A program made the position numbers and the translations under genes. This document shows positions 28,801-31,890 of a DNA stretch of 40,651 nt, piece after piece. Within the stretch, counting starts at the first letter, position 1, and each line of letters starts with the position of its first letter. This DNA comes from Gemmatimonadota bacterium (GTDB taxonomy: Bacteria > Gemmatimonadota > Gemmatimonadetes > Gemmatimonadales > Gemmatimonadaceae). Where the stretch lies: the NCBI GenBank assembly GCA_026387895.1, contig JAPLKT010000126.1, positions 1-40,651 on the forward strand. Direction: 5' to 3'. The notes beneath the pieces are model-generated. The model had not been told where the DNA came from. It saw only the letters and a list, made by a program, of their open reading frames with translations, and ran no database searches.

Positions 28801-28840
28801 CCGCGTTGCTCCGCGTTGCTCCGCGTTGCTCCGCGTTGCT
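28801..28840. repeat. 10-bp tandem repeat, four exact copies
   Basis: CCGCGTTGCT occurs four times with no mismatch, between the convergent ends of the lipoprotein gene (28791) and dnaN (28851). The first copy is preceded by a partial GCT. No hairpin with a T-run is present in this gap. Confidence 0.95.
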
Positions 28841-28850
28841 TAGGTGCGGC

Positions 28851-29969
28851 TTAGTCGACGAGGCGCAGTGGCATGAGAAGGCAGAGATACTTCGACGGAT
28901 CCGTCCAGCCCTCTGGCTCAATTGTTGCCGCACGATCCGGTGCCTTGAAGGTCAGGCGAATCTCGTCGGTGGGCATATAGCGCAAGATCTCGAGCAAATA
29001 CGCCGCGTTGAAGCCGATATCAAGTGGATCGCCGTTGTAGCGCACCGGCAGCTCGTCCTGTGCCTCGCCAAGATCCGGGGTGCTCACGGAGAACTTGAGC
29101 ATACCGGAGTTGAAAGACAGCCGGATCCGGTGCGTCTGGTCGGAGGCGACAATCGACATACGCTTGAGCGCGCTGGCGAGGGCTGCTTTGTCGATGGTTG
29201 CAACTTTGTCATTGTCCTTCGGGATCACCTGATCGTACGGCGGATACGGCCCTTCGATCAGGCGAGTAAAGACCGAGGTGAACGGCGAGCGGAAGCCCAG
29301 GTGATTGTCCCCCTGCGCGACCTCTAGCTCCTCTTCTGCGGGGAAAAGACGGCAGATCTGGTCCAACGCCTTGGGCGGGATGATTAAGTCGCCCTGAGCG
29401 GCTTTGGCGGCCTTGGCGCCCACCGGCACTTCCATCTTGGCAAGTCGATGACCGTTTGTGGCGACCATGCGCATGTGTTCCGCGCGAATTTCCCAAAGCA
29501 CCCCATTCAAAATTGGGCGACTCTCCTCGTTGCTCACCGCGAACGAGGTGTGTGTGATCAGCCGCTGCAAGTCGCCCGCTGGGATCCGAAGCGCTTTTTC
29601 GAAGGCCACGGCGGGGAAGCTCGGGAACTCACTCTTCGGTAAGCCTAAGAGTTTGAACTTTGAGCGCCCACACTCCAGGGTGATTCGCTGATCGCCGGTC
29701 GCTGAAATCTTGACCGGCGCTGGCGGCAACTCCCGCGCGATTTCTGCAAGCTTGCGTGCGGGAATCGTGATCGCTCCCGGAGCTTCGATATCGGCGGTGA
29801 CTTCGGTGCTCACGGCGATATCGAGATCGGTACCGGAGATGCGAATGCCTTTCTCGGTGGTCTGCACGAGAAGATTTGCGAGCACAGGCAACGTCGTTTT
29901 GGAGGGGACTGCCGGCGTGACCGCGGCGAGCCCTTCCTGCAACTTCTCACGCGAGATAGTAAATCGCAT
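28851..29969 (-). CDS. dnaN: DNA polymerase III beta subunit (sliding clamp)
   Basis: The clamp that tethers replicative polymerase to DNA. A 372-aa protein starting MRFTISREKLQEGLAAVTPA, with three repeated clamp domains. Recognisable segments are FKLLGLPKSEFPSFP, TNGHRLAKME, GFRSPFTSVFTRLIEGPYP and the C-terminal YLCLLMPLRL. Length is normal. The ATG has AAGGAGAA not ahead of it but GGGGACAGG upstream. The stop is close to a 10-bp tandem repeat. It follows dnaA on the same strand after 237 bp of origin-like DNA. Confidence 0.97.
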   Translation of the reverse strand: MRFTISREKLQEGLAAVTPAVPSKTTLPVLANLLVQTTEKGIRISGTDLDIAVSTEVTADIEAPGAITIPARKLAEIARELPPAPVKISATGDQRITLECGRSKFKLLGLPKSEFPSFPAVAFEKALRIPAGDLQRLITHTSFAVSNEESRPILNGVLWEIRAEHMRMVATNGHRLAKMEVPVGAKAAKAAQGDLIIPPKALDQICRLFPAEEELEVAQGDNHLGFRSPFTSVFTRLIEGPYPPYDQVIPKDNDKVATIDKAALASALKRMSIVASDQTHRIRLSFNSGMLKFSVSTPDLGEAQDELPVRYNGDPLDIGFNAAYLLEILRYMPTDEIRLTFKAPDRAATIEPEGWTDPSKYLCLLMPLRLVD

Positions 29970-30206
29970 TCCCGACCTGTCCCCTGAATAAGGAGAATGT
30001 GGATCCCGCGCCTAGACTAGTATCTACATGAATTAGATATCTAATTCGCAGTAGTAGTAGTAAGGTGTGGAAAGTTGAAAAGCAACGAAAGTCGTTATTT
30101 AACTTACACTTCTGGTGCGTCAGGTGATGTGGAAACGCTGTGCCAATCGTGGGGGAGCGCGTGGGTTACCGCAAATCCCCCACGCCTGATGGGGACAGGA
30201 TGTTGA
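29970..30206. other. dnaA-dnaN intergenic region, candidate unwinding part of oriC
   Basis: A 237-bp gene-free stretch, more AT-rich than its neighbours at 30010-30110. It holds three DnaA-box-like sites in one orientation (TGTGGATCC 29998, TGTGGAAAG 30066, TGTGGAAAC 30128; consensus TGTGGATAA), a 16-bp perfect palindrome AATTAGATATCTAATT (30031-30046), a run of trinucleotides next to the middle box, and a 9-bp stem CGTGGGGGA/TCCCCCACG (30148-30184), which may be a dnaA terminator or origin structure. Confidence 0.7.
30049..30074 (+). promoter_or_regulatory. DnaA-trio run adjoining a DnaA-box-like site
   Basis: CAG-TAG-TAG-TAG-TAA (30049-30063) is five consecutive (C/T)A(G/A) triplets, then GG, then TGTGGAAAG (30066-30074). 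In the basal unwinding element of Bacillus-type origins, DnaA boxes, a short GC spacer and repeated trios of this form lie in this order and direct strand opening. Confidence 0.65.
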
Positions 30207-31595
30207 TCAATGTTCATGACGCAGAGTTTCCCGCACCTTTTCCACACGCCCCCGGAACTCCGCATCCTCCTGCATCATGACGCCCACACGCTCCAAGCTG
30301 TGGATGACGGTCGAGTGGTCACGACCACCGAACGCCTGTCCGATTTCCACCAACTGGAGCCCGAGGATCTCGCGCGCGAGGTACATCGCCACCTGTCGCG
30401 GGGTTGTGAGGACCTTGGTGCGCGTCTTGGACTGCAGTCCATCGACCGTGACCCCCCACTCGCCCGCGACCCGCTGCTGCACGGTCCGCATACGATCATG
30501 GCGTGAGGACCGCGGCTGAGCAGCATCATTCGATTTCAGCTTGTCCCGAAGTGCTTCGCGGGCCAAGTCGACCGTGACCACGCGATGTTTGAGCGAGGCG
30601 TAGGCGAGGAGCTTGATGATGGAACCTTCAAGCTCGCGAACATTTGCCTGGACGTGATCGGCGATGAAGTGGAGGACGTCATCGGGGATTGTGTGCTCGA
30701 GATGATCGGCCTGCGCCTTTTCTCGCAGGATTGCAATACGGTGTTCGAGATCTGGCGGCACAATATCGGCGACCATTCCCCACTCAAAGCGGCTCACAAG
30801 CCGCGCTTCGAGTTTTGGGATCTCCGACGGCGGGCGATCGCTGGTGAGCACGATTTGCCGTCCCGCTTCATAGATCGCGTTGAACGTATGAAAGAACTCT
30901 TCTTGCGTGGCTTCTTTGCCGCCGAGGAAGTGGACGTCGTCGACCAGGAGGAGATCCGTCTCGCGATAGCGGCGACGGAAATCGTGCATGGTGCGTTTCG
31001 TGATGGAAGTGACGACGTCGTTGGTAAACTGCTCGGTGCTGATGTACATGACGCGGCAGTTTGGGGTGCGGGCCAGGATGTCGTGCGCAATGGCCTGCAT
31101 GAGGTGCGTTTTCCCCAGTCCCGTGGCGCCGTAGATGAAGAGCGGGTTGTAGCTCTTTCCTGGTGCGGCGGCGACCGCGGATGCGGCGGCGGCGGCGAGC
31201 TCGTTGGACCGTCCGATGACGTACGAGTCGAAGAGGTAGCGATCGTTCAAAGTACTTAAAACGACGCTATTGTCTCTCTTTTGTGGCGCTATTGTGGCGC
31301 TTTTTTGAGGCATGAAAAGGTCCATCTGCGACCTTTTTAGCCGTTCTGCCTGGACCCTAAAAACGACCTTGACCGGATGTCCAATGCAGGTCGGGGCGTA
31401 CCCCTCAAGGATGGCCTGATGCTTACTCTCGTTCCACTCAACAGACCACTGGTCTGGAGCGGTGAGGATCAGCGCTGCGCCGTCATAGCTGTCGGGCGCG
31501 AGCGGTGTGAGCCACGTCTCAATGACATGCTCCGGGAGCTCGGTCTTTGCGCGATCGAGGAGACGATCCCAAGCCTCAACTGCGGAGAGTGTCAC
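30207..31595 (-). CDS. dnaA: Chromosomal replication initiator DnaA
   Basis: DnaA binds origin boxes and, with ATP, melts oriC. From GTG 31595 the protein has 462 aa and starts VTLSAVEAWDRLLDRA (V read as M), matching the usual domain I. Then comes a short linker; the AAA+ domain with Walker A GATGLGKTH (156-164), Walker B LLLVDDVHFLGG (217-226), and RPPSEIP; and C-terminal domain IV with the DNA-binding signature GGRDHSTVIHSLERV. The open frame continues 86 codons further up to ATG 31853, but that part is a translated tandem repeat and low-conservation sequence, so I treat it as noncoding. No clear ribosome site precedes GTG 31595. Confidence 0.95.
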   Translation of the reverse strand: MTLSAVEAWDRLLDRAKTELPEHVIETWLTPLAPDSYDGAALILTAPDQWSVEWNESKHQAILEGYAPTCIGHPVKVVFRVQAERLKRSQMDLFMPQKSATIAPQKRDNSVVLSTLNDRYLFDSYVIGRSNELAAAAASAVAAAPGKSYNPLFIYGATGLGKTHLMQAIAHDILARTPNCRVMYISTEQFTNDVVTSITKRTMHDFRRRYRETDLLLVDDVHFLGGKEATQEEFFHTFNAIYEAGRQIVLTSDRPPSEIPKLEARLVSRFEWGMVADIVPPDLEHRIAILREKAQADHLEHTIPDDVLHFIADHVQANVRELEGSIIKLLAYASLKHRVVTVDLAREALRDKLKSNDAAQPRSSRHDRMRTVQQRVAGEWGVTVDGLQSKTRTKVLTTPRQVAMYLAREILGLQLVEIGQAFGGRDHSTVIHSLERVGVMMQEDAEFRGRVEKVRETLRHEH

Positions 31596-31605
31596 AGGCG
31601 TGTCA

Positions 31606-31661
31606 CGAGTGGCGTGTTGCGAGTGGTGTGTTGCGAGTGGTGTGTTGCGAGTGGTGTGGTG
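31606..31661. repeat. 14-bp tandem repeat directly upstream of dnaA
   Basis: Four units: CGAGTGGCGTGTTG, CGAGTGGTGTGTTG (twice) and CGAGTGGTGTGGTG. They end 10 bases before the dnaA start and so lie in its mRNA leader, or in an N-terminal extension if the far start is used. Confidence 0.93.
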
Positions 31662-31733
31662 TGCTGCGTCTTTCACTGCGCGTTCGACCGCTTTCGCGAG
31701 ACGAAGGGGAGGGGGCAAAGAGTACGGGTCGTA

Positions 31734-31742
31734 TGTGGATAA
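31734..31742 (-). promoter_or_regulatory. Perfect DnaA box upstream of dnaA
   Basis: TGTGGATAA, the exact complement of the consensus TTATCCACA, lies 139 bp upstream of the dnaA start. It fits autoregulation of dnaA or the upstream half of a bipartite origin. The 295-bp gap 31596-31890, between divergent dnaA and rpmH, otherwise holds the 14-bp repeat and presumably both promoters, which I cannot pin down. Confidence 0.75.
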
Positions 31743-31890
31743 GTCAACACTCGTGCTTCCGAACAAATGGTACCGCCGATAGGGGTGGACTTGATGTATG
31801 TGTTTCCCACGACTAGGTTTAGGGGTCTTGGGTTCATACGACTTGAACCGCATTTTGAATCGCAGTTGAACAGCGCTTTTTGGAGCAGCT

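Follow-up and report, generated by a model that had tools for sequence, protein, structure and literature searches.

Does the gap between dnaA and dnaN of a Gemmatimonadota bacterium hold a replication origin that DnaA would open in the manner known from Bacillus subtilis? The question was raised by a first-pass annotation, which described five DnaA-trios, a GG dinucleotide, and a DnaA-box-like site in this gap and likened their arrangement to the basal unwinding system (BUS) of Bacillus-type origins. The window, by which we mean the whole 40.6-kb stretch of DNA that was analysed, contains dnaN (DNA polymerase III beta clamp; 28851..29969, - strand; Pfam PF00712/PF02767/PF02768) and the dnaA open reading frame (30207..31853, - strand; Pfam PF00308/PF08299), whose stop lies at 30207, separated by a gap of 237 bp (29970-30206). 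The true dnaA start is probably near 31595 because homology begins only at about codon 92. The genes yidD, yidC, and mnmE lie on the + strand, rightwards of dnaA. We found nothing specific in the literature on the oriC of Gemmatimonas or on DnaA-trios in Gemmatimonadota, and a survey of the BUS among bacteria leaves Gemmatimonadota unmentioned in its main text (PMC8287927).

The box and trio module in the dnaA-dnaN gap

Every element of the proposed module could be located in the sequence. The five DnaA-trios, CAG, TAG, TAG, TAG, and TAA (i.e., three TAG, one TAA, and one CAG, all five being of the NAN type), occupy positions 30049..30063 of the + strand, the strand which DnaA would bind as single-stranded DNA by analogy with B. 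subtilis. The TAA trio is nearest to the proximal DnaA box, TGTGGAAAG (30066..30074, + strand; CTTTCCACA on the - strand), from which the trios are separated by a GG spacer (30064..30065, + strand). The proximal box has two mismatches to TGTGGATAA. Directly behind it, and overlapping it by 2 bp, lies a degenerate tandem DnaA box with three mismatches, AGTTGAAAA (30073..30081, + strand; TTTTCAACT on the - strand); sister genera (e.g., L153 and L156) carry a clear TCCACA box at this position. On their other side, the trios adjoin an AT-rich region (30019..30048), which is the presumed duplex unwinding element. Across the genus, the 30 bp beyond the trios are 66% AT on average. In the dnaA-to-dnaN direction, the boxes come first, followed by CC, the trios, the AT-rich segment, and finally dnaN, an order shared with B. 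subtilis.

The two further box-like sites that had been reported to share this orientation are also present, both on the + strand, in the orientation of the proximal box and with two mismatches each: TGTGGATCC (29998..30006) on the far side of the AT-rich region and TGTGGAAAC (30128..30136) on the dnaA side of the BUS. Two sites had been overlooked, namely the tandem box and a perfect DnaA box TGTGGATAA (31734..31742, + strand) upstream of dnaA in the dnaA-rpmH region. Most of 30 relatives have a box with at most one mismatch, in equal orientation, upstream of dnaA.

When the gap was shuffled 20,000 times, a box with at most two mismatches and a minimum of four trio-like triplets no more than 16 bp away arose in two of the shuffles. 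No second box-plus-trio module was found elsewhere in the 40.6-kb window. The 21-base core pattern TAGTAGTAGTAANGNGTGGAA, searched with up to three mismatches, has a single match in the 2.85-Mb genome, located here and with 0 mismatches; the reversed control of this pattern also gave one match in the same genome.

The gap and its flanks contain several other repeats. A 9-bp inverted repeat, CCTGTCCCC / GGGGACAGG (29976-29984 and 30191-30199), brackets almost the entire gap and is also found in the relative G015, being absent from the other species examined. A GC-rich hairpin, GTGGGGGA...TCCCCCAC (30149-30183), located just downstream of dnaA and devoid of a T run, is a possible dnaA terminator; a consensus scan for terminators found none in the gap and did not pick up this hairpin. 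An approximately 14-bp tandem repeat, GTGTTGCGAGTGGT (31605-31665), is found a short distance upstream of the probable dnaA start, and the long dnaA open reading frame runs through it. Another tandem repeat, TCCGCGTTGC (28801-28840), lies just past the 3' end of dnaN.

The GC skew had been proposed in the first-pass annotation as a check on the position of the origin. The local skew of the window is flat, and its own genome consists of 154 contigs; the check was run on two relatives, sampled in 20-kb stretches. G106 consists of one contig of 5.18 Mb; its sampled skew goes from -0.018 to +0.029 at dnaA (P = 0.001), and the minimum of the cumulative skew lies between -168 and +102 kb of dnaA. 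In G105, with a contig of 3.14 Mb, the minimum lies at -179 to -24 kb of dnaA, with a left-right contrast that is not significant (P = 0.27). The minimum is thus found at dnaA in the former and within about 180 kb of it in the latter.

Conservation in relatives and alternative readings

A strict DNA pattern applied over the phylum matched chiefly the genus of the window, and an alignment of the dnaA-dnaN gaps was required instead. The locus in relatives was located via DnaA, and the gaps were taken from about 170 genomes. Within the genus (16 species), conservation of the gap peaks in the 30 bp at 30050-30079, whose mean identity is 0.92 vs. 0.65 overall. The middle and flanking bases of the trios are almost invariant in these species, the core TTCCAC of the proximal box is almost invariant across the genus, and the palindrome and the rest of the gap drift. 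Beyond the genus, we aligned the modules of 146 Gemmatimonadota-type origins from 72 genera, all located in the dnaA-dnaN gap and with equal polarity, so that conservation in relatives, another check suggested beforehand, is borne out for the box-plus-trio block. The set stems from automatic anchoring, and about 22 misanchored or incomplete loci were excluded from the tallies, most of which still show a trio run by eye. One contig labelled as a Nitrospiraceae MAG (L071) carries a dnaA 64% identical to that of the window together with a Gemmatimonadota-type BUS, and is therefore probably mislabelled or a contaminant.

Could the element mainly be a promoter or operator of dnaN, at which DnaA regulates dnaN via the boxes without any strand opening? 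The dnaN gene starts 80-110 bp downstream of the element, and DnaA boxes are able to regulate genes. However, a consensus scan, covering promoters of the sigma-70 type only, found no sigma-70-like promoter in the gap, and a triplet-phased conservation whose middle base is A or C is unexpected for a promoter. Position and polarity also fit a BUS throughout the phylum, and we regard the regulatory reading as very unlikely.

Another reading takes the palindrome beside the trios as the functional core, e.g., as a binding site for a dimer or as a cruciform, with the trios being incidental. The AT-rich palindrome of the first-pass annotation is indeed present and perfect (GAATTAGATATCTAATTC, 30030-30047, inside the AT-rich region), even though it measures 18 bp rather than the 16 bp given and its sequence is not conserved in the genus. 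It is perfect in G015 as well, and the entire gap, as single-stranded DNA, folds better than its shuffles (z -4.96). In other species of the genus, however, the palindrome is degraded and the trios are the conserved part, and the mean hairpin z beside the trios is only -0.3 to -0.8, and +0.2 in f2/f3. We consider a palindromic core highly improbable, and the palindrome was rejected as a conserved or separate element, being degraded within the genus. Finally, slippage readily makes short triplet repeats, but the notion that chance placed a TAG microsatellite beside a box-like site itself due to chance is hardly credible in view of the two hits in 20,000 shuffles and the single occurrence in the genome, and is already refuted by the conservation of the run in 72 genera though the surrounding bases have diverged.

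DnaA and the presumed opening of the origin

According to the published rules, a BUS comprises a DnaA box with at most two mismatches, a spacer of 0-16 bp, and three or more NAN trios, for which 3'-GAT-5' is preferred, on a strand that leads from the box into AT-rich DNA (PMC8287927). A second co-oriented tandem box, for which up to four mismatches are allowed, is usual but not obligatory. The module of the window fits these rules in order, polarity, and spacing, in agreement with the Bacillus-type arrangement claimed for it: in the probable origin region, there are a box at a 2-bp distance from NAN trios on the correct strand, a tandem box, and the corresponding residues in DnaA. The best PDB match of the window's DnaA is B. 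subtilis DnaA (8btg; residues 92-544). Its closest named matches come mostly from Gemmatimonadetes assemblies, which places the organism in the Gemmatimonadota. The trio-contacting and arginine-finger residues named for B. subtilis (PMC10721633, PMC8287927) are present, with N187, I190, I193, R202, E228, and R264 corresponding to N, V, I, R, E, and R, respectively.

Like the BUS of B. subtilis oriC (DnaA-boxes 6/7 and DnaA-trios, incC; PMC6669920, PMC8287927, PMC10721633), the module of the window lies between dnaA and dnaN, and both have tandem co-oriented boxes, a short GC spacer, a 3'-GAT-5' trio strand extending from the boxes into AT-rich DNA, and the trio-contacting DnaA residues in common. 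Unlike in B. subtilis, the boxes are weaker (two and three mismatches), the box-adjacent trio is TAA, and an extra weak box of equal orientation lies beyond the AT-rich region. The boxes are also one base closer than in the Bacillaceae origins examined. Whereas B. subtilis uses DnaD/DnaB/DnaI, the genome of the window has a gene for DciA, as found in 29 of the 31 genomes searched, its own included. Outside the Bacillota, the same box-spacer-trio logic is known from Helicobacter pylori, Synechococcus elongatus, and Deinococcus radiodurans, for which the BUS was tested in vitro with the cognate DnaA (PMC8287927).

The anatomy, the uniqueness, and the conservation of the module, the position-specific constraint on its trios, and the matching residues of DnaA were all observed here, and the element is very probably the BUS of a Gemmatimonadota-type oriC, with its opening argued by analogy. 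We infer DnaA binding, oligomerisation, opening, and helicase loading from B. subtilis. DnaA would bind to the tandem boxes (30066-30081) as double-stranded DNA, and DnaA-ATP would polymerise on the + strand toward dnaN with one protomer per trio, each capturing the G and A of 3'-GAT-5'. The AT-rich region would thereby open and helicase loading would become possible, in this lineage presumably via DciA, whose gene is present. The affinity of the boxes is in doubt because of the two mismatches in the proximal box and the three in the distal tandem box. This reading extends the BUS to a little-studied phylum.

A second, DnaA-like protein, about 630 amino acids long and with two tandem Bac_DnaA ATPase domains (L312:957-2855, + strand; L311:585-2465, - strand), is encoded by many relatives; it ends in a conserved EKIVW(D/E)WP motif and gave no match to the C-terminal DNA-binding domain of DnaA. 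A shorter single-domain version (L315:386-1237, - strand) is found in G015 beside a pseudouridine-synthase-like open reading frame. The genome of the window has just a short match to this protein, on contig C140.

The far side of the AT-rich region differs between lineages. A direct far-side box is found in 26 of 68 origins of the window's family, where 4.4 are expected, the window's own being the one at 29998-30006. Outside the order of the window, none of 34 origins has a direct far-side box, and 17 of the 34 (13 genera) have an inverted box 30-75 bp past the trio start vs. 1.3 expected. Inverted trio pairs occur in 62 of 112 origins within the order (27.4 expected) and, hardly in excess, in six of 34 outside it (3.9 expected). 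A doubtful, more speculative reading would be that the Gemmatimonadota origin is a two-sided BUS or the descendant of one, in which the AT-rich region has a box and trios on one side and an inverted box and/or inverted opposite-strand trios on the other. The far-side box in the family of the window is direct, not inverted, which speaks against it, and among the lineages none clearly has an inverted box and inverted trios together as a complete mirrored BUS. The two-sided model is worth testing because the placement of the second helicase in B. subtilis has been proposed to depend on DnaD bound opposite the trios (PMC10201434). The recognition element of DnaD is a set of TnnT repeats facing the trios. 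If the model were true, there would be a DnaA platform on each strand, and both helicases would be placed without DnaD.

Base-by-base constraint on the trios

The alignment of the modules was anchored by scoring the first and third triplet positions only. Since the anchoring rule ignores the middle base, the tally of the middle base is an unbiased readout. We counted the internal triplets with NTN-type neighbours, read on the trio strand. In both sets of genomes taken together, the first base is G in 224 cases vs. five others and the third base is T in 224 vs. 64 others, both tallies being inflated by the anchoring rule. The middle base is A in 224, C in 28, G in four, and T in one. The excess of C was spotted in the first set (A 149; C 15, from 13 genera; G 2; T 1), and a test on 60 additional genomes followed (A 75; C 13, from eight genera; G 2, from one genus; T 0). 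Counted by genus in both sets, C has taken the place of the middle A in 20 genera, G in three, and T in one. A-to-G is a transition and would therefore normally be expected to be commoner than A-to-C; in these triplets, 46 of the 64 third-position changes are transitions. The difference in transitions between the middle and the third position, counted by genus, gives a Fisher P of 1e-7 over both sets, with slightly looser flanks and with shared ancestry not fully corrected.

In B. subtilis, the G and A of a trio are captured in a dinucleotide pocket, in which A makes contact with Asn187 through its amino group, and T is not captured (PMC10721633). Mutation showed that C can stand in for A and that G or T cannot, and the authors suggested that DnaA might read a wider range of sequences (PMC10721633). 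The order of constraint found here, with G and A over T, is what capture of G and A but not of T would lead one to expect, and the bias from A to C at the middle base agrees with the prediction of the base-capture model. NCN trios also occur outside the phylum, e.g., in L103 (Selenomonas), L106 (Paenibacillus), and L123 (Anaerovibrio). The published search required NAN trios (PMC8287927), and Gemmatimonadota arrays with NCN members would therefore be shortened by it. Searches for the BUS that are restricted to NAN trios overlook part of the array in many origins.

We regard the natural A-to-C variation as the most useful addition of this analysis, amounting to a natural mutagenesis experiment over 72 genera. 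The presumably captured G varies least and the uncaptured T most, and the captured A gives way almost only to C, the base that likewise carries the required amino group. The result of mutation in B. subtilis (PMC10721633) may here be seen as an evolutionary pattern.
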